The notes under the pieces are model-generated. The model did not search any database and was not told the DNA's origin. It saw only the letters and a list, made by a program, of their open reading frames with translations. From positions 1 to 44,045 of the forward strand of contig JAAYCF010000001.1 of the NCBI GenBank assembly GCA_012744415.1: a stretch of 44,045 nt of DNA, read 5' to 3'. This stretch comes from Thermotogaceae bacterium. GTDB taxonomy: Bacteria; Thermotogota; Thermotogae; MWEM01. Both the position numbers and the translations under genes were made by a program. Shown piece by piece: positions 7,712 through 32,315 of this stretch. Position 1 is the first letter of the stretch; each line of letters begins with the position of its first letter.

Positions 7712-7740
7712 GCTGGTCGTCGGTTACCCAGACGACCAGC
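7712..7740. terminator. hairpin between convergent kbl and permease genes
   Basis: A perfect 10-bp inverted repeat (GCTGGTCGTC at 7712-7721 and GACGACCAGC at 7731-7740, 9-base loop) lies between the 3' ends of two convergent genes. Only a short T run (GTTTG) follows on the plus strand, so it may act as a bidirectional but imperfect terminator. The right arm lies inside the permease C-terminal codons. Confidence 0.55.
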
Positions 7741-9574
7741 GTTTGCGTACTAAAGCGGGCAAGGGAATGGAGCAGACCGCCATGACCGCTACGGTCAGAA
7801 TCGCTCCGGCGGCGAAAATTCCCCATCGCGTATGGTGCAATCCCGGATCTCCTGCCCAATCATAGAGCCGCAAGGAGACGGGATATTTCTCCGGTGACGA
7901 TATCAGCAACAACGGCGCGATAAAACTCGACCATCCTTTAATAAAGATGTATAAAAACACAACCGACACCGTCGGTATTGAAAGCGGTAAGAGGATCTTC
8001 CAAAAAAGCTGCCACCGCGAAGCGCCATCGATTTGCCCCAGCTCCGTGTAGGTCCGATCGGTTTGCCGAAAAGCGAAATAGGCGGTCATAAATGCGATGG
8101 GAGCGCTTTGGTTCAAGACGGCGAACACGATAGGCAGAAATCGGTTCAATCCGTGTAGCGCTTCCAGCGTTTGAACGAGCGGCACGAATGTGTTCATACC
8201 CGCCATCACCAAAGTTATACTGATCAATCCTTTCGCGAAGGTGTAGTATTTTGGTTTTTTTAAAGCCGCATAAGCCGCCATCGAGAAGATGAGCACCCCC
8301 AACGCCCCACTCCCTAAACCCAACCAAAGACTGTTCTTCAAGTTGACGAGAAATCCGGAGTCGAAGAGATAGGCGTAATTATCCCAGCTGAGATTCTCTA
8401 AGGCCTTTCCGATCGTCGGAAAGGGGGGAAGATACTCGTAGCCGGAAAACGAAAGCCAAACCAGAAACCCCAAAGCGATTACGCTAACCGATATCCAAAG
8501 GGCAATCAGCGCGGTGTTGAAGAAAAAGAGAAGCCGATCGAAAACCTTCCGGAAGGGAAAGAAATGGTATAAAAGAAAAACCCACAGAATGACGGTGAAG
8601 GGAGAAAGATGCCCGAGGATGAGGGATGCCCCTGCGGCGATTCCGGCGCAAGCGTATGTATGCTCTTTTCGCTTCCAGTCCGTGAAGAAGAGGGCGGGTA
8701 AAAAAACCAGAGACCCAAGAAACAACCCCCATAACACTTCCAGTCCGAACCAAAGCCAAAAGGTCTTTTCCGGACGCCTGAACAACCGGTTCATAAACCA
8801 GAAGCTCGCTAAGAGCGTGGCGGTCACCAGCGCATTTTGCGACCATAAAAAGGTCCAGGAGTCCCCCGAGGTAAAGTCTACCAGGTTGTTTTTCAGAAAG
8901 AAGCCGAGCGTGGTTGTCGCGCCCGCAATCCCGTAAGGGGTAAAGCCTGCGATTAGCAAGGGGCGCCCTTCGGTAAGCATCATGGGAAGAGTGACATCGC
9001 GCATCTGGTCCAAAAAGGATATACAGAGATAGCCGACCAGACTTTTCCTCGCTATTTGAAAGAAGAGGGAAAAAAAGCGATCGATGGTTCCGGCGCCTTC
9101 GAGCCGCATGCTTTCGTCATAGGAAGGAGACAAGTCCTCAAAAAGTGCCAGAGCGATTAGGGTCATGATCGGAAGGTCCACCCAAAGTCGCCCCGTTAGA
9201 ACGGAAAGAAAAGCCTGTAATCCGGAAGCGATAGGGTTTTCTACCGTATTGAGAAGCATCGCCCGAAACACGGGCAGGGAAACGAAAGAAGGAAGCGCCC
9301 AAATTACGAATAAGAGAATAAAACCTGCTTTTCTAAAAAAACGTGGTAATCGGTAGAGAAGGTAAGCGGCCGTCGTCCCGCAAAAGAAAACCGATAGTGT
9401 GGTGAATATCGCGTATAGAGAGGAAACTTGCGCGGATATCCGGAAAGATCCGTCTCGGAACAATTCCCAAAAAAGATCGAATCGGATTCGCGTCCGGCCG
9501 GCAATCGCCGAAAACGCGGCCGGAAAGAGCGTCATGCCAGCCGTCAGCAGTAGAAACGGGAAAAAAAAGATCAT
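7724..9574 (-). CDS. ABC sugar permease, apparent MalF-MalG fusion
   Basis: The protein has 616 residues, about twice a normal sugar ABC permease. The N-terminal half (about 1-300) has several hydrophobic segments and an EAA-like loop, MRLEGAGTIDRFFSLFFQIA. A middle set of hydrophobic segments follows. The C-terminal half (about 350-616) has the typical MalG pattern, with SLWLGLGSGALG at its first core segment, then ELGQIDGASRWQLFWKILLPLSIPTVS. Two EAA loops in one chain mean that one polypeptide probably supplies both transmembrane subunits. The start ATG overlaps the stop of the binding-protein gene (9571-9574). No ATPase gene is nearby, so a shared MsmX/UgpC-type ATPase elsewhere is likely. 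Confidence 0.85.
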   Translation of the reverse strand: MIFFFPFLLLTAGMTLFPAAFSAIAGRTRIRFDLFWELFRDGSFRISAQVSSLYAIFTTLSVFFCGTTAAYLLYRLPRFFRKAGFILLFVIWALPSFVSLPVFRAMLLNTVENPIASGLQAFLSVLTGRLWVDLPIMTLIALALFEDLSPSYDESMRLEGAGTIDRFFSLFFQIARKSLVGYLCISFLDQMRDVTLPMMLTEGRPLLIAGFTPYGIAGATTTLGFFLKNNLVDFTSGDSWTFLWSQNALVTATLLASFWFMNRLFRRPEKTFWLWFGLEVLWGLFLGSLVFLPALFFTDWKRKEHTYACAGIAAGASLILGHLSPFTVILWVFLLYHFFPFRKVFDRLLFFFNTALIALWISVSVIALGFLVWLSFSGYEYLPPFPTIGKALENLSWDNYAYLFDSGFLVNLKNSLWLGLGSGALGVLIFSMAAYAALKKPKYYTFAKGLISITLVMAGMNTFVPLVQTLEALHGLNRFLPIVFAVLNQSAPIAFMTAYFAFRQTDRTYTELGQIDGASRWQLFWKILLPLSIPTVSVVFLYIFIKGWSSFIAPLLLISSPEKYPVSLRLYDWAGDPGLHHTRWGIFAAGAILTVAVMAVCSIPLPALVRKRWSSG

Positions 9575-10695
9575 TGAAACTGATCGATATAGGCTTGAGC
9601 CGTAGATAAAAGCGGTTGAAGTTCTCCCTCACCCCGCAGGTATAGTTCCAAACAGGCCTTCATCGCCGTCCAATAACCTTCCGAATAAGCGATGGTGGAC
9701 GGTTGGACAAGAGAGTTTTTCAACGATTTCTCAAATACCTCGCTGTATCGTTCGGTCGAAGGGATTCCCTCGATCAAACTTTGCTTCATATGCGCTGCGC
9801 ACAGTTCTTCCATCCGATCGAAGAGGAAAGAAAGGAAGGGGTAGACGAGCACTTCATTTTTGAAAACCACCCAGGCTTTTGTGTCGATGACTGATTTCCA
9901 GGGGTGAGGCAAAGGGACGGCGGTATAGGGGACTTCCATTTCGTCAAAATTGGGGATGAGATAGCTGCCCTGCGGGATCATCGCCACCTTTCCGGCGGAG
10001 AAGTCTTTGATCAGTCCCGGACGTTGCGGATAGTCTTTGAACCAACCGTTAACCACCCAAGAACGCAGCCTTCTCAGAACCCCTTGATTCTCTTCGGTCT
10101 TAACGCGGATGGTTCCATCCGGCATAAAGGATTGGCCAAAGCCTTCCTGCAATCCCTGAAAGATATACGGAGAGTTGAATCCCCATCCGATCGGCGTCAC
10201 GCCACAAGCGTGCAAACGGGTCATGAGCGCTTCAAGGTCGTCAACGGTCCAATCGGATTCCGGAAGAGGTATCTGATGTTTTTCAAAGACAGCCGTTTGT
10301 AAAAAAAGGACTTGCGTATCCGCATAAAAGGGAACCGCGCGCAACGCGCCGCCAGAAGTGTAAGTTTGTATTCCGATCTCCGCGAAACGCCCGGCATACC
10401 CAAGCAACCTCCCCGAGTCGACGGGAAGAGCGCTTGAGGCTACCAGCGGGAAGTAGTCACTCTTGATCAAACAGAGATCCGGGAGGGTATCCGGAGTTTT
10501 CATCCCCACTTGCAGTTTTTGGTCCAGAGCCGGTATCGGAACGATCTCCACGCGCACCTGCGCCGTTTCGGCATAGGCTTTCGCTACTGTTCGATACCAA
10601 TCTTCCCCTTCCCACGAAACCCATACGGTAAAAGAAAGGCCGACGGTTACCGAGATAAATAATAAGAAATATGAGAGGATCGCGCGTTTAGTCAT
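9571..10695 (-). CDS. sugar ABC transporter substrate-binding protein
   Basis: This 374-residue protein starts at ATG 10695; the TTG at 10701 is rejected because the ribosome site AAAGGAG would then touch it. The signal peptide (TKRAILSYFLLFISVTVGLSF) is followed by FTVWVSWEGEDWYRTVAKAYAE, the usual opening of family-1 (MalE-like) binding proteins. Later features are PDLCLIKSDYFPL, ALRAVPFYADTQVLFLQTAVFEKHQIPLPESDWTVDDLEALM and GKVAMIPQGSYLI, all typical. No lipobox cysteine is seen, so it is probably periplasmic. It is coupled to the fused permease. The sugar cannot be named. Confidence 0.87.
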   Translation of the reverse strand: MTKRAILSYFLLFISVTVGLSFTVWVSWEGEDWYRTVAKAYAETAQVRVEIVPIPALDQKLQVGMKTPDTLPDLCLIKSDYFPLVASSALPVDSGRLLGYAGRFAEIGIQTYTSGGALRAVPFYADTQVLFLQTAVFEKHQIPLPESDWTVDDLEALMTRLHACGVTPIGWGFNSPYIFQGLQEGFGQSFMPDGTIRVKTEENQGVLRRLRSWVVNGWFKDYPQRPGLIKDFSAGKVAMIPQGSYLIPNFDEMEVPYTAVPLPHPWKSVIDTKAWVVFKNEVLVYPFLSFLFDRMEELCAAHMKQSLIEGIPSTERYSEVFEKSLKNSLVQPSTIAYSEGYWTAMKACLELYLRGEGELQPLLSTAQAYIDQFQ

Positions 10696-10866
10696 TTTCA
10701 ACTCCTTTCAAATATACGAACCAACAAGGGGTTACGAATCTTAGCGAAAAAAGGTACAACGAAAGAAAGTCCCTTCAGAAGGAAAATCCGCTCAGCAATA
10801 AAACGGCTTGAACGCCGGGAAACCGATAATTTTGAAAAAACGCGAAAGAAAAACGCAACATAACGG

Positions 10867-20145: not shown

Positions 20146-21885
20146 CTAGTCCTGCAGCCAATAGCGGAGGATCCCGCGCAAGGTTTCGGGTGGAAAGCAC
20201 GTGCCCGTATACAGTAGGCGTCGATCCTCGGAACTTACGATAGCGGGACCGGGATAAGGACCCGCCCATTGCCCCAGGACCCGCCCGGTTCTCAAATCTA
20301 TCTCCTCGTACCAAAGGGATCCTTCGAGGAGCTCTGGCAGCGGTTGGAGGGCGCCGTCGGGCGCTATCCAGCGTACGGGCTGTTTTGAGACCGCGCCGAA
20401 GTCCCGAATTTCAAAGGCGAGCGAGGGAAAGTTGAGACCGAGGCTTCGATCGGAATGGATATGGTTCTTTTCGTTTTTCAAGTCGGAAGCGCATGTCAGA
20501 AACACTTTGCCCGGGAAGGCGTTCAGTTGGCGTCGAATCGGTTCGGGAATACAAATGGCATAAGGCAGCAAAACTCTCTCATATTGCGACAGGTCGCTGT
20601 CCCGAAAGAAGAACTGGATATCATAACCGAGGTTTCTCATCGCGACATAGACTTCGAAAACCTTTTCGACGTAGTTCAAGTCTTTGGTAACCGTGTTAAT
20701 TTGGTGCATCCAGGCGTTTTCATAGTCAAAAAACAACCCGGTTTTTGCGGGTTTTTTTCGAGGTTTTAAATCTTCTGCGGCCAAGTCTTTAACAACGCTG
20801 ATTCGCGGGCTTTTTTCAGGATTTCCGGTATAGTCCAATAACCCGCTGTGGTATTGTTCTGCGCCGCTGTATAAGGGGCGATAACGGAAGTACACGACGT
20901 TTTCGGCTCCGAATGCAAAGGCTTGTTTCGTTGTAGCCCGGAGCCATTCAGGAGGATAGTATTGGTTCCGCTGTTGCCAGTTCACGCGCCCCGGTTGCTG
21001 TTCCATCACGGTAAACGGTTTTTCTTTGAGAGACCACATCAAATCGAAGTTGAATTCCGAAATTAGGGGATCGTACTGCTCCGTCGGTTGATAGTTGTCG
21101 TAAGAGATGAAGTCATATTGTTTCCTAAGCGTGACATAGTCGAGTTCGGTGAAACCAACCATGAAATTATGCGTGATCGGCGCTTCGGAGCCCGCACGAA
21201 TGACGTCGATCTGATCTTGCGCGAAAGTATCGGCAGAATGTGTCGAAAACCGGTAGAAATCCAATACGTGGGTAGGATTGAGCCGCGCATTCGTTCTCCG
21301 AGGGGTGCGGATTTCAGAAAAACTGCCGTATTCCTGTGACCAGAAAACCGTTCCCCAAGACTGATTCAGGGCGGAGACCGTTTGATACTTCCGCTCCAAG
21401 TAATGCTGGAAGGCTTGATCGCATTTCTCACAATAACAGTAGGTCGTATCCTCGCAACCGAATTCATTGTCTATTTGCCAGGCATATAAAGCCGTAGCGT
21501 GTCCGTAACGATTGGCCAAACGCTGGACGATGTCGCGCACGTAAGAGCGGTAGGTCACGCTGTTGAGACAATAATGCCGTCGACTTCCAAACGGTCTCTC
21601 ATGGCCCAAAGCGTCTTTTTGGAGCATATCCGGGTGTTTTCGGGTCAACCAGGCTGGTGGCGTAGCGGAAGGCGTTCCTAAGATAATCTTTAACCCAAGC
21701 GCATCGCAACGCGAGAAAAGTGTATCCAGAAGAGAAAAGTCGTAGACTTCCTCCTTCGGCTCGAGCTTCGACCAAAGGAATTCTCCGACGCGTATCAGCT
21801 CCAATCCGTTGTTTTTCATAATGGATAAATCGGTATCCATCCGCTCCAGCGGCCAATGTTCCGGGTAATAATCAACGCCTAACAT
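20146..21885 (-). CDS. beta-galactosidase, glycoside hydrolase family 42
   Basis: The protein has 579 residues with a strong ribosome site (AGGAGG). It opens LGVDYYPEHWPLERMDTDLSIMKNNGLELIRVGEF, as GH42 enzymes do. The acid/base Glu is E141 in WQIDNEFG and the nucleophile is E295 in VMEQQPGRVNW. The Zn-binding cysteines are present (C106, C150, C152, C155). It lacks a signal peptide, so it acts in the cytoplasm on imported galactosides or arabino-galacto-oligosaccharides. At 579 residues it is shorter than the usual 650-690, mainly at the C-terminal domain. It is the last gene of the lacI-transporter operon. Confidence 0.93.
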   Translation of the reverse strand: MLGVDYYPEHWPLERMDTDLSIMKNNGLELIRVGEFLWSKLEPKEEVYDFSLLDTLFSRCDALGLKIILGTPSATPPAWLTRKHPDMLQKDALGHERPFGSRRHYCLNSVTYRSYVRDIVQRLANRYGHATALYAWQIDNEFGCEDTTYCYCEKCDQAFQHYLERKYQTVSALNQSWGTVFWSQEYGSFSEIRTPRRTNARLNPTHVLDFYRFSTHSADTFAQDQIDVIRAGSEAPITHNFMVGFTELDYVTLRKQYDFISYDNYQPTEQYDPLISEFNFDLMWSLKEKPFTVMEQQPGRVNWQQRNQYYPPEWLRATTKQAFAFGAENVVYFRYRPLYSGAEQYHSGLLDYTGNPEKSPRISVVKDLAAEDLKPRKKPAKTGLFFDYENAWMHQINTVTKDLNYVEKVFEVYVAMRNLGYDIQFFFRDSDLSQYERVLLPYAICIPEPIRRQLNAFPGKVFLTCASDLKNEKNHIHSDRSLGLNFPSLAFEIRDFGAVSKQPVRWIAPDGALQPLPELLEGSLWYEEIDLRTGRVLGQWAGPYPGPAIVSSEDRRLLYTGTCFPPETLRGILRYWLQD

Positions 21886-21938: not shown

Positions 21939-22778
21939 TTACCCTTTTACCGCCCCGACGGTCAATCCTTCGATAAAGTATCGCTGGAAAATCAGAAAGA
22001 CCGCTAACGGTACCGCGGCTGTTATCAGCGAGGCGGCGGCGATCAGATTCCAGCTGCTCACATACTGCCCCTGTAAACTGACTAATCCGACGGTGATGGT
22101 TTTTAATCGATCCGATTGTAGCAGAATCAGGGACCAAAGATAATCGTTCCAAATCCAAGTGAATTCCAAAATGCCCAGTGCGGCGACCGCCGGCACGGAA
22201 AGCGGGAGAGCGATTTTACGGTAGACGGTGAAATCTTTCGCCCCGTCTATCCGGGCGGATTCATAGAGGCTAACCGGGATGGATTTCATAAAATTCCTAA
22301 GAAAAAAAGTGCAAAAGCCCAATTGGAAGGCGATGTGAAACAGAATCAACCCCAAGTGGGTATTATACACTCCAATCGTCTGCGAGAATTTGAACACGGG
22401 GATCAGCAGCATTTGAAAAGGAATGAGCATACCGCCGATAAAAACAAATAGAATCACCTTTGAAAGGCGGAAGGAATAAAACGACAGCGCAAAGGCCGAG
22501 AGCGTAGAGAAGAGCAACGCGCCTAAAACGGACGGCACCGTGACGACGAAGGTATTCCAAAAATAGGTTTTCATGTTCCCGGTATGCCATGCCGAAGAGA
22601 AATTCTCCCAAACGGTCTTTTGTGGAGGCATCCACCAATAACGGCTGCTCATCAACTCATCCATCGATTTCATCGCCGTGAAGGTAGCGATGAAAAATGG
22701 AATCAGCCAGATCACCACGATCAATGTGGCGGTTATATAGAAAAAGCCGATCGTCAACGCTTTTCTTTTCTTGGTCAT
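21939..22778 (-). CDS. sugar ABC permease, MalG type
   Basis: The protein has 279 residues and six predicted membrane segments. The EAA loop is YESARIDGAKDFTVYRKIALPLSVPAVAAL, typical of MalG-family permeases in carbohydrate uptake transporters. It pairs with the MalF-type permease upstream: its ATG overlaps that gene's stop (22775-22778). The transporter probably uses a shared ATPase encoded elsewhere. Confidence 0.93.
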   Translation of the reverse strand: MTKKRKALTIGFFYITATLIVVIWLIPFFIATFTAMKSMDELMSSRYWWMPPQKTVWENFSSAWHTGNMKTYFWNTFVVTVPSVLGALLFSTLSAFALSFYSFRLSKVILFVFIGGMLIPFQMLLIPVFKFSQTIGVYNTHLGLILFHIAFQLGFCTFFLRNFMKSIPVSLYESARIDGAKDFTVYRKIALPLSVPAVAALGILEFTWIWNDYLWSLILLQSDRLKTITVGLVSLQGQYVSSWNLIAAASLITAAVPLAVFLIFQRYFIEGLTVGAVKG

Positions 22779-23881
22779 GACGCGTTCGCCTCCGTTCGAA
22801 GCACATTATTCAGGTAAACGGCGATGAAGCCGAAGGTGATGACGAATTGTATCACGGCGATCGCGGAACCGTATCCCATCCGATAGTTGTGGAAGGACTC
22901 GATATACATGAAATTCGCCAAGACGTTCGAAGAATTGAAAGGCCCCCCACGCGTCATGGAATAGACGATGTCAAAAGCGCGCAAAGAATCGATGATGCTG
23001 ATGGTCATCGCGACGATGGTCGCCGGCTTAAGCATCGGCAGCAAGACGTACCAAAAACGTTGACCCCAACTGGCGCCATCCACAACTGCGGCTTCCACCA
23101 GCTCGGGGGGCACATTTTTCAGGCCGGCCAAGAACAAAACCATCACGTAAGGGATCTGTCTCCAAATCGCGGCGAAGATCAAAGAAAAAGTAACGAAATC
23201 CGGATCGTTGATCCATGGAAAACCTCGTTTAGCGATTCTTGAAATCGTCAGTTGCGGATTCCAATACACCTTAAGCCACTGAGCGGCAGCGATCCAAACC
23301 GCGACGAATAGAAGGGTCACCCAGAGGGTTTTGAAGGCGGATGCCTGTCGGCGTAAAAAGAAGACTTTCGAACAGAATAAGCCGGCCAAGAGGGGGATCA
23401 GCACGAAACAGAAAGCGGAGAACGCCCACTGTTGCAACTCTCCCAGATTGTTGAAACCAAAGAGACGCACGAATGAAGTCAACGCGCCATATTGTGGCTG
23501 GTAGATCCATGACCAAATCTGTCCGATAACGACAAAAGACAAGGTCATCGAAAGATAAAAGAGCGTTTTGTAAACCTTCCCTCCGGGCAACTTCATATCG
23601 AAGAGCAATGCGATGAACAGGCCGCAGGGAACGGGAATGCCTAAAAAAAAGATCATCCAATAGAGATTGTTCCTGATAGAAGTCCAAAAGGTTGCGTCGC
23701 GAAACAACAGCGTAAAGTTATCGAACCCGATCCAGATCGGGTGGGCATCCATTCCATCCCATTTCGTAAAACTGGTCCCAAAGGTTTGGATAATCGGCCA
23801 GATCACCCATAAAACATACATCGTCAGCGGGAGCGCCAGGAAAGCCCAAGGTTTCCACCAGTGTTTTTTCGAAAGCGTCAC
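22775..23881 (-). CDS. sugar ABC permease, MalF type
   Basis: The protein has 368 residues from GTG 23881, with GGAGG ending six bases upstream; the longer frame to 23974 lacks a site. It begins TLSKKHWWKPWAFLALPLTMYVLWVIWP and has several membrane segments. The EAA loop is LVEAAVVDGASWGQRFWYVLLPMLKPATIVAM. An inserted region with extra hydrophobic segments (about 140-205) makes it longer than the usual 300. It sits between the binding protein and the MalG-type permease. Confidence 0.92.
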   Translation of the reverse strand: MTLSKKHWWKPWAFLALPLTMYVLWVIWPIIQTFGTSFTKWDGMDAHPIWIGFDNFTLLFRDATFWTSIRNNLYWMIFFLGIPVPCGLFIALLFDMKLPGGKVYKTLFYLSMTLSFVVIGQIWSWIYQPQYGALTSFVRLFGFNNLGELQQWAFSAFCFVLIPLLAGLFCSKVFFLRRQASAFKTLWVTLLFVAVWIAAAQWLKVYWNPQLTISRIAKRGFPWINDPDFVTFSLIFAAIWRQIPYVMVLFLAGLKNVPPELVEAAVVDGASWGQRFWYVLLPMLKPATIVAMTISIIDSLRAFDIVYSMTRGGPFNSSNVLANFMYIESFHNYRMGYGSAIAVIQFVITFGFIAVYLNNVLRTEANAS

Positions 23882-23982
23882 GGTCTTCCTCCTATACCAC
23901 GGGTTTGTCAACTCGATATCCGAAAAGAAACTGGGATCAAAGCGCCCGTAACGGAGCGCCTTGATCCCATGCAAACCGAATA

Positions 23983-29352: not shown

Positions 29353-30329
29353 TGTTCAAAGATATCGGAAAGCTCTTTTTGGGGAACAAAAAAGCGTTAT
29401 TCGGTCTCCTGTTGCTCACCTTCTTCGCATTGGTCGGTATCTTCGCGCCGTTTCTTGCTCCGTACGATCCTAAGAACAATCGCGTGGAAACGGTTACGGT
29501 GTTGAGCGAAGAACGTGATCGCTCCCGTACGATTAGCCGCGAGGATTTGGATGAGTCCACGGAGAAGCGGGTGTATTCGCAGAGCGTTCATACAACCTAC
29601 GAGCGCATCACGAAAAAACTGCCCCTGAAAGGAAAACCTTCGTCGGAACATCTGTTGGGCACAACCCATTCAGGACAGGATATCTTTTCTCAGCTGATCT
29701 GGGGAACACGCGTCAGTTTAACGGTGGGGTTGGTGACCGGGCTGTTCACCACTCTCCTATCCCTGTGTTTGGCGCTGATCGCCGGGTATTTGGGTGGTCT
29801 TGTGGATGATATTATTTCGCTCTTTACGAACGTTTTTTTGGTCATCCCCTCCCTCCCTTTGATGATCGTGATCGCGGCTTATGTGAGCGTACGCGGCGTG
29901 ATCCCTATTATCCTGATCTTGGGCTTGACGAGTTGGCCTTGGCCCACCCGTGTGCTCCGTTCGCAAGTCGTTTCTTTGAAAAACCGAGACTTCATCAAGG
30001 TTTCAAAATCGCTTGGGGAGAAGCCGGCATACGTTGTTTTTCGTGAAATTTTACCGAATATGATCTCTTTAGTGATGGCTTCGTTCTTCTCTTCCACGAT
30101 GGCGGCGATCATCGGGGAAGCCACCCTCGAGTTTATTGGGTTGGGGAATGTCTCGGTCGTCAGCTGGGGGACGATGCTGTATTGGGCGCAAGCAAACGGT
30201 GCCCTTCTCGCGGGCGCGTGGTGGTGGTTCCTTCCCCCCGGTATCTGTATCGCCCTTATTGGTACCTCCTTTGCGTTGATGAACTTTGCCATCGATGAAA
30301 TATCGAATCCGAAATTAAGAAAGAGATGA
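29352..30329 (+). CDS. Opp-type ABC permease, OppC family
   Basis: The protein has 325 residues. It has the N-terminal segment LFGLLLLTFFALVGIFAPFLAPYDP, then an extracytoplasmic stretch of about 70 charged residues (residues 45-100) longer than in most OppC proteins. HLLGTTHSGQDIFSQLIWGTRVSL is the family hallmark. The EAA-like loop is DFIKVSKSLGEKPAYVVFREILPNMI. The stop overlaps the next start (ATGA at 30326-30329). Confidence 0.94.
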   Translation: MFKDIGKLFLGNKKALFGLLLLTFFALVGIFAPFLAPYDPKNNRVETVTVLSEERDRSRTISREDLDESTEKRVYSQSVHTTYERITKKLPLKGKPSSEHLLGTTHSGQDIFSQLIWGTRVSLTVGLVTGLFTTLLSLCLALIAGYLGGLVDDIISLFTNVFLVIPSLPLMIVIAAYVSVRGVIPIILILGLTSWPWPTRVLRSQVVSLKNRDFIKVSKSLGEKPAYVVFREILPNMISLVMASFFSSTMAAIIGEATLEFIGLGNVSVVSWGTMLYWAQANGALLAGAWWWFLPPGICIALIGTSFALMNFAIDEISNPKLRKR

Positions 30330-31312
30330 ACGCGATGCAAGAATTCCTATCCGAAAACATTTTAGAGTGTCAGGAACTGGTAGCGGGATACGAGCTGAAG
30401 GCCGGCTTCGTCAGAGCTGTGGACGGCGTTTCCTTCTCTTTGAGAAGGGGAGAGTTTCTGGGGATCGCGGGTGAGTCCGGCTGCGGAAAAACCACCCTGG
30501 CCTACGCGGTGATGCGCTTGTTTCGGGATAACGCCAAGATTCGAAGCGGAAAGATACTCTATTCAGGGAAAGATATCGCCAACGCCTCCGAGGAAGAAGT
30601 CAAAAACTTGCGTTGGGAACATATATCAATGGTCTTTCAATCCGCAATGAACGCGCTAAACCCCGTTCTCCCTATCGGCGAACAGCTCACGGACGCATGG
30701 CTTGCCCACAAACACGGAGACCTTCGCGAAGCCAAAACGCGAGCCCTCGAGGTCCTGAAACTGGTCGATATTCCCGAAGATCGCTATAACGCCTATCCAC
30801 ACCAACTCTCCGGAGGAATGAAACAGAGGGTGATGATTGCCATGGCGTTGATGCTTCAACCGGAGATCGTGATTATGGACGAACCCACCACCGCTTTGGA
30901 TGTCGTTGTCCAGAGGACCATCATAGAAAAAATCCAAGAGTTGCGTAAAGAGCTCCAGTTCTCCGTCATCTTCATCACCCACGACCTGTCGCTTTTAGTG
31001 GAGATCAGCGATCAACTGGCGATCATGTATGCGGGGAAGATCGTCGAATACGGACCGGCTTCGGAGGTGTTTTTGAGCCCCTGTCATCCCTACACCCAAG
31101 GGCTGATGGCGTCCTTTCCCACGCTGAGCGGGCCAATCGCACGTATGGGAGGCATCGAGGGCAAACCGCCCGACTTGATCGATCCGCCTCCGGGGTGTCG
31201 ATTCTATCCGCGGTGCCGAAACAGACATAGCGGTTGCGATCTTAGCGCACCCCCACTTCGCCAGGTCAAACCCGGTCATTATGCCGCTTGCGACGGTGAA
31301 TACCATGGCTGA
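30326..31312 (+). CDS. Opp-type ABC ATPase, OppD family
   Basis: The protein has 328 residues. Walker A is GESGCGKTTLA, the Q-loop is VFQSAMNALNP, the signature is LSGGMKQRV and Walker B is VIMDEPTTALD. The C-terminal region, with YTQGLMASFPTLSG and CRFYPRCRNRHSGC, is the oligopeptide-transporter extension whose cysteines resemble an iron-sulfur site. It powers the importer as a heterodimer with the next gene. A second in-frame ATG at 30335 could also serve as start. Confidence 0.94.
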   Translation: MNAMQEFLSENILECQELVAGYELKAGFVRAVDGVSFSLRRGEFLGIAGESGCGKTTLAYAVMRLFRDNAKIRSGKILYSGKDIANASEEEVKNLRWEHISMVFQSAMNALNPVLPIGEQLTDAWLAHKHGDLREAKTRALEVLKLVDIPEDRYNAYPHQLSGGMKQRVMIAMALMLQPEIVIMDEPTTALDVVVQRTIIEKIQELRKELQFSVIFITHDLSLLVEISDQLAIMYAGKIVEYGPASEVFLSPCHPYTQGLMASFPTLSGPIARMGGIEGKPPDLIDPPPGCRFYPRCRNRHSGCDLSAPPLRQVKPGHYAACDGEYHG

Positions 31313-32315
31313 AGAGATATTGAGATTGCAGGGCGTATCAAAACACTTCCCCATCCGTTCGTTCCGCCGGTTCGGCGAGGTCGTCCACGCGATGGACGAT
31401 GTTTCATTTTCTTTGGGAAAGGCGGAGGTGTTGGCGCTGGTCGGAGAATCGGGCAGCGGAAAAACGACCACTGCCAGCGTGATTGCGCAGTTGTACCCCA
31501 TCACTTCCGGTCTGATTCGTTTGGCGGACCCGCAGGCTCCCGACGGGTTCCGATCGGTGAGTGGGAAGCTTTCGAGGAAAGCGTTGCTCGGTTACCGGAA
31601 AAGGGTACAAATGATCTTCCAGGATCCTTTCGGTTCTCTGAATCCGACGCATACAATCGAACATATCCTGTCCCGTCCATATGTAATCCACGATAAAGTG
31701 GTTTACCGGAGAGGGGAAGAGAGACGAAAAACCGCGCTAAAGGAGCAGCTGCACCAACTCTTGCGTAGTGTCGGGCTGGAACCGCCCCAACAGTATCTGG
31801 ACAAATTTCCGCACGAGTTATCCGGCGGGCAACGTCAACGGGTCAATATCGCCCGAACCTTCTCCATCGAACCCGAGATCGTCTTGGCGGACGAACCCAC
31901 CTCGATGCTGGACGTTTCGATCCGTATGAGCATTATGAATATGATGCTTGCCTTTCAGGAACAGAAACAGGTCAGTTTTTTATATATCACGCATGATTTG
32001 GCAGGAGCCCGGTATATGGCTCAGAGGATCGTGGTGATGTATGCGGGGATGATCATGGAGATCGGCACCTCCGATGAAGTGGTTCAGAGAGCCGTCCACC
32101 CTTACACGAAACTGCTTCGATCGGCAGCCCCCGCTCCCGAAGAGGGATTGAAGAGAAATCGGTTAATCACGCAAGGGGATATCCCTTCGCTGATCCATCC
32201 CCCCGCCGGATGCCGGTTTCATCCACGTTGCCCTTACGCGATGGCAGAGTGTTCGCGGCTGATCCCGCCGTTGAAAGAGGTCGAAGGCGGCCATTGGATC
32301 CGGTGTTATTTATAA
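31305..32315 (+). CDS. Opp-type ABC ATPase, OppF family
   Basis: This 336-residue protein starts at ATG 31305, overlapping the OppD stop by eight bases, with GGTGA upstream. Walker A is GESGSGKTTTA, the Q-loop MIFQDPFGSLNP, the signature LSGGQRQRV and Walker B VLADEPTSMLD. The C-terminal extension (HPYTKLLRSAAPAPEEG, CRFHPRCPYAMAEC) is typical. It completes the importer. Its last six bases overlap the 3' end of the convergent histidine kinase gene. Confidence 0.94.
   Translation: MAEEILRLQGVSKHFPIRSFRRFGEVVHAMDDVSFSLGKAEVLALVGESGSGKTTTASVIAQLYPITSGLIRLADPQAPDGFRSVSGKLSRKALLGYRKRVQMIFQDPFGSLNPTHTIEHILSRPYVIHDKVVYRRGEERRKTALKEQLHQLLRSVGLEPPQQYLDKFPHELSGGQRQRVNIARTFSIEPEIVLADEPTSMLDVSIRMSIMNMMLAFQEQKQVSFLYITHDLAGARYMAQRIVVMYAGMIMEIGTSDEVVQRAVHPYTKLLRSAAPAPEEGLKRNRLITQGDIPSLIHPPAGCRFHPRCPYAMAECSRLIPPLKEVEGGHWIRCYL

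Follow-up and report, generated by a model that had tools for sequence, protein, structure and literature searches.

The window analysed here is a stretch of 44,045 nucleotides from a Thermotogaceae bacterium (contig JAAYCF010000001.1 of assembly GCA_012744415.1). Its minus strand carries a two-gene cassette, consisting of a gene for a solute-binding protein and a gene for a permease in which two modules are joined in one chain. The relevant features are as follows.

9571..10695, minus strand: solute-binding protein gene, MalE-like (Pfam SBP_bac_8/SBP_bac_1), upstream of the permease gene
7724..9574, minus strand: fused permease gene, 616 aa (MalF-like module, linker, MalG-like module)
8789..9574, minus strand: N module, MalF-like, about residues 1-262 (profile match to MalF, E 8e-32; AlphaFold model of residues 1-270)
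8525..8788, minus strand: linker, about residues 263-350, boundaries approximate (hydropathy; fastest-evolving part)
7727..8524, minus strand: C module, MalG-like, about residues 351-616 (profile matches to SugB, E 3e-40, and MalG, E 1e-28)
Residues 152-163 of the chain: N EAA loop, YDESMRLEGAGT
Residues 509-520 of the chain: C EAA loop, YTELGQIDGASR
21939-22778 and 22775-23974, in the same window: split permease genes, MalG-like and MalF-like

The permease gene is a single frame of 616 codons with an ATG start and zero internal stops on the minus strand; on the plus strand of 7724-9574 stops are abundant. The initial annotation had described two permease modules with two EAA loops and no stop or restart between them. 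Clearly, the 616 codons run uninterrupted, both quoted loops were located in the chain, and Pfam BPD_transp_1 matches it in two stretches. That annotation did not give the strand, which is minus, or the 4-base overlap between the two genes of the cassette; it also missed the phylum-wide family and its second member on contig C88. Downstream of the permease gene, a convergently oriented gene encodes a member of the BioF/Kbl acyltransferase family, and scans of the window with Rfam and for tRNA returned no hits. The split permease pair that had been noted elsewhere in the window is present, but its second gene ends at 23974, not at 23881. The BPD_transp_1 match of this MalF-like permease is spread over residues 116-392, which suggests an insert of roughly 100 residues; its neighbours are a GH42 beta-galactosidase (20146-21885), the MalG-like gene, a binding protein and a LacI-type regulator.

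When the halves of the fused chain were compared with MalF and MalG, as had been proposed from the sequence, the N half was assigned to MalF and the C half to MalG by profiles and, for the N half, also by a structural model. With the window protein alone as a query, the C half matched SugB (1e-10) and MalG (3e-10), and the N half matched MalF (4e-4). A profile of 27 fused relatives (A1) matched, among the PDB chains, SugB (3e-40), MalF (8e-32), MalG (1e-28) and a SugA chain (9e-26). We also scored 56 fused proteins (47 from Thermotogota and 9 from Chloroflexota) with profiles of split permeases (MalF-type, 30 rows; MalG-type, 33 rows; fragments L029, L136 and L137 left out): all N halves scored higher with MalF than with MalG (56/56), and all C halves higher with MalG than with MalF (56/56). 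The AlphaFold model of residues 1-270, built from 14 rows that included MalF relatives, had a mean pLDDT of 63, with several blocks above 80. MalF was ranked first for this model by both Foldseek and VIA-align 2 (Z 17.6, 3.2 A, 223 residues), while SugA, MalG and other importers scored below it. The full-length AlphaFold model of the fused chain (two rows) had a mean pLDDT of 34 and was not used, and the alignment of P0001 with split permeases (A3) was discarded because its MalF rows fell on the C half. The match of both halves to solved sugar permeases, with the frame kept in relatives, is far beyond chance.

A MAG of the same genus, Thermotogae bacterium ADurb.Bin062 (L037; also G001), contains a 616-codon frame with 79% identity and no indel. 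The differences between the two genes are concentrated at third codon positions, and dN/dS was 0.128 overall (0.144 in the N module, 0.199 in the linker and 0.091 in the C module); the binding-protein gene is intact in L037 as well (78% identity). Although the genome is a MAG-like assembly of 418 contigs, the conserved frame in relatives refutes an assembly slip, and the chance that an error in assembly or sequencing merged two adjacent permease genes is negligible, given the codon-like divergence without an indel over 616 codons in the same-genus MAG and the full-length single frames in dozens of genomes, some of them in one or few contigs.

Searching with A1 (E below 1e-60) revealed the fused-permease family in 53/103 Thermotogota genomes and 20/38 genera, a count that includes three genomes (G012, G061 and G094) with contig-end or broken pieces only; the initial search with P0001 alone had matched 27/61. 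As about half of the sampled Thermotogota genomes share the one-piece version, it is a real, old design and not a sequencing error. The natural fusion of two permease subunits, as it had been called in the initial annotation, is borne out by this spread over genera, by the MalF-like then MalG-like order in every scored fused protein and by the open frame in the same-genus MAG. One member, L137 (contig C33 of the f11 genome G094), has an in-frame TAA in the linker, at a contig end; it may be a gene that has split again, one that has decayed, or an error.

The end of the binding-protein gene overlaps the start of the permease gene by 4 bases (ATGA). The frame of the binding-protein gene is open from a TTG at 10701 onwards; the third codon, an ATG, is the more probable start, and L037 likewise has Met there. 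The best natural matches of the binding-protein family in the PDB are MalE1 and MalE2 of T. maritima. The subfamily, as defined by profile A7, was found in exactly the 53 genomes with fused permeases; the cut (E 1e-46) was chosen after viewing the list, and the next matches, at 5e-45 and weaker, were taken as other MalE-like proteins. The binding-protein gene was adjacent and on the same strand in 58 of 62 permease hits (47 upstream, 11 downstream), where ten hits were joined from two pieces and G012 was counted as two contig-end pieces. Three of the non-adjacent hits (G011 C96, G012 C19 and G066 C360) reach a contig end or stop just short of it; in G006, the fourth, the genes are on different contigs even though the permease has about 540 bases of upstream sequence. 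Among the cassettes measured in 12 relatives, the genes overlap by 4 bases in eight and by 11 bases in one, and are separated by 1, 1 and 5 bases in three. All 18 family rows keep W27, E31, G32, K62, D75, Y126, D128, Y179, D273 and K275. When the family is aligned to MBP, its PYYAD stretch lies opposite YPIAVE, and Y179 opposite the Tyr of EPYF, positions which we take to be the ligand-binding E111 and Y155 of MBP.

By simple hydropathy, the window protein has 13 segments and the relative with 79% identity has 14, which can be read as six, two in the linker, and six; the two predicted membrane segments of the window protein's linker span residues 280-298 and 317-335. Twelve segments were found in the compact relatives L053 and L054 (584 aa), and 11 to 18 across all 27 rows, these counts being rough. 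Measured over the same columns, the linker comprises 88-114 residues in 22/27 rows; in the five compact rows it is 9-42 residues long. With an even number of helices in the linker, both modules would keep their normal orientation. The linker is the fastest-evolving part of the chain (dN 0.24 vs 0.13 and 0.11 in the modules).

Quick trees were built from 81 rows for the C half and 78 rows for the N half. Both grouped all 47 fused Thermotogota rows, and the 'split' rows within that group proved to be fragments: L029 for the C half, L136 and L137 for the N half. Careful trees (67 and 69 rows), from which near-copies and the three fragments were dropped and to which Chloroflexota rows were added, placed the Thermotogota fused rows in one clade with a support of 100/100 for the N half and 99/94 for the C half. 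One clade in the trees of each half indicates that the Thermotogota fused permeases descend from an old, single fusion. Outside this phylum, A1 matched 8/301 genomes of Chloroflexota, the phylum of G109 (L045, Caldilineaceae), and seven of them contain nine fused MalF-MalG frames of 658-685 aa; the eighth match, G744, was rejected as a fusion, as it is a split pair. The nine fused rows were placed on the split-permease side of both trees. The AU test rejected a single fused clade common to both phyla with the C half (p 0.0079); with the N half it did not (p 0.081). As the Chloroflexota fused rows lie among split permeases in both trees, their fusion is likely, though not proven, to be separate from that in Thermotogota, which would make two fusions. 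At 1e-60, A1 found none in 398 genomes of the phylum of G108 (L044, Lachnospiraceae) and none in 299 genomes of the phylum of G106 (L041, Massilia), with about 3-4 candidates scored per genome in each case.

The N EAA loop of the window protein is degenerate in that residue 173 is Q, where 20/27 A1 rows have P; Gly160 is retained. Altered EAA loops were seen in A1 rows L064, L065, L069, L080 and L070-L072. In the A1 alignment, the f7 g8 group has a C EAA loop without its Gly (LD-TT), and in the compact f10 group Ser replaces Gly in the N EAA loop; decay of one loop of the pair is seen in some fused permeases. It is conceivable, but doubtful, that the fusion and the two-helix linker let one ATPase-docking loop decay, so that two ATPases would couple asymmetrically in a phylum-wide single-chain CUT1 importer. 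We know of no such asymmetric-loop form from split sugar importers.

No ABC ATPase gene was found near the fused permease; the only ATPase-like frames that a motif scan found in the window are at 30326-32315. One OB_MalK-domain gene was identified in the genome; it lies on C86, and no permease was seen next to it. Two further ATPases, of the TOBE_2 type, are encoded on C312 and C121 alongside two-domain permeases that belong to a different kind and that we read as FbpB-like. The OB_MalK gene occurs in 53/53 cassette genomes and also in 48/50 genomes without the fusion; its presence therefore does not point to the cassette. An ABC-ATPase-like frame within four frames was found in 7/28 neighbourhoods, and, judging by cluster or size, we read most of these as OppD-like, in cluster c2 and about 335 aa long, or as UvrA-like, about 921 aa long. 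An operon without its own ATPase is also found in the Streptomyces importers of the MsiK type, whose permeases are encoded by two genes. There, CUT1 operons are stated to borrow this shared ATPase, and CUT1 ATPases to be interchangeable (PMC3924187).

We consider it very probable that the cassette encodes a CUT1 (MalFGK2-type) ABC importer with the permease heterodimer in one chain. In such an importer, the binding protein would catch an oligosaccharide outside the cell, and the two halves of the permease would pack together like MalF and MalG. The two linker helices would return the chain to the cytoplasmic side, keeping the topology of both halves, while a shared MalK-type ATPase from a gene elsewhere would dock in two copies, one on each EAA loop, and power transport. 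The fusion could provide a 1:1 ratio and force correct pairing amid many similar sugar permeases. Our best guess for the substrate is a sugar, with an oligosaccharide being probable. The term "sugar" permease of the initial annotation is well supported at the level of homology (the MalE-like partner and the MalFG/SugAB-like halves).

Fused permeases are known in FbpB-type importers, and fusion is ordinary in FbpB/SfuB/ThiP-like permeases, which likewise carry two modules per chain. The genome itself encodes two two-domain permeases, those beside the TOBE_2 ATPases of C312 and C121, as would suit a reading of the chain as a fused iron-type permease instead of a sugar permease. However, these systems represent another permease subfamily with another binding protein, A1 matched the fused iron permease chain (9j4r) at 1e-7 only, far below SugB (3e-40) and MalF (8e-32), and the partner of the window protein is MalE-like. 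Membership in the iron permease subfamily was rejected on these matches, and we regard the iron-type reading as highly improbable.

A cassette built of CUT1 parts could also import something other than a sugar, e.g., an osmolyte or a cofactor, and we consider this rather unlikely. No sugar-breakdown gene was recognised adjoining the cassette in the window, and, when neighbouring genes were examined for hints of the substrate, the binding protein was the only neighbour that different families had in common. The neighbours differ between families, including DUF4213/DUF364, adenine deaminase and, at the C88 paralogue, a molybdopterin-binding-like protein; moreover, the binding-protein family has invariant residues of its own. 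On the other hand, the nearest solved relatives of both proteins are maltose-binding proteins and sugar permeases.

This putative importer resembles MalFGK2-MalE (CUT1; T. maritima MalE1/MalE2) in both permease types, the EAA loops, the MalE-like protein and the genomic MalK-type ATPase. In contrast to that system, in which MalF and MalG are separate, it has one chain with a linker and no adjoining ATPase gene, and its N half is about 262 residues long vs 514 in MalF. In the LpqY-SugABC trehalose importer, SugB is the closest solved chain for the C half, but SugA and SugB are separate chains. The Chloroflexota fused permeases (L148-L155) have the same MalF-like to MalG-like order, and in L149 an SBP_bac_1 protein precedes the permease. 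No account of fused CUT1 permeases was recognised in the open-licence literature, as judged by titles and the beginnings of abstracts. Fused permeases are already known in other ABC importers; the single-chain MalF-MalG permease with its own binding protein is real and conserved, its family is ordinary and its architecture is uncommon. As MalF and MalG are an unlike pair, a natural fusion with fixed pairing and stoichiometry could make sugar importers easier to study structurally and mechanistically; it also offers two separately mutable ATPase-docking loops in a single chain. The cassette is also a clean marker for a Thermotogota transporter with a putative sugar substrate, and what appears to be a second fusion, in Chloroflexota, suggests that such a join can arise repeatedly.

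Two long chains of the same genome, L073 6120-8879 (919 aa) and L074 2946-5351 (801 aa), have a MalG-like module at the C-terminal end; in L073, Pfam gave no domain besides this permease module. The second fused cassette of the genome (L053 2873-8064, contig C88; counterpart L054 in G001) consists, in order, of a binding protein (494 aa), an Oxidored_molyb-domain protein (456 aa), the compact fused permease and a PF04018 undecaprenyl-phosphate-translocase-like gene. In nine loci of the f3, f5 and f9 families (L058, L061, L062, L067, L068, L077, L078, L081 and L082), the cassette is directly followed by a gene of cluster c3, which its L068 member identifies as DUF4213/DUF364 ('putative heavy-metal chelation').
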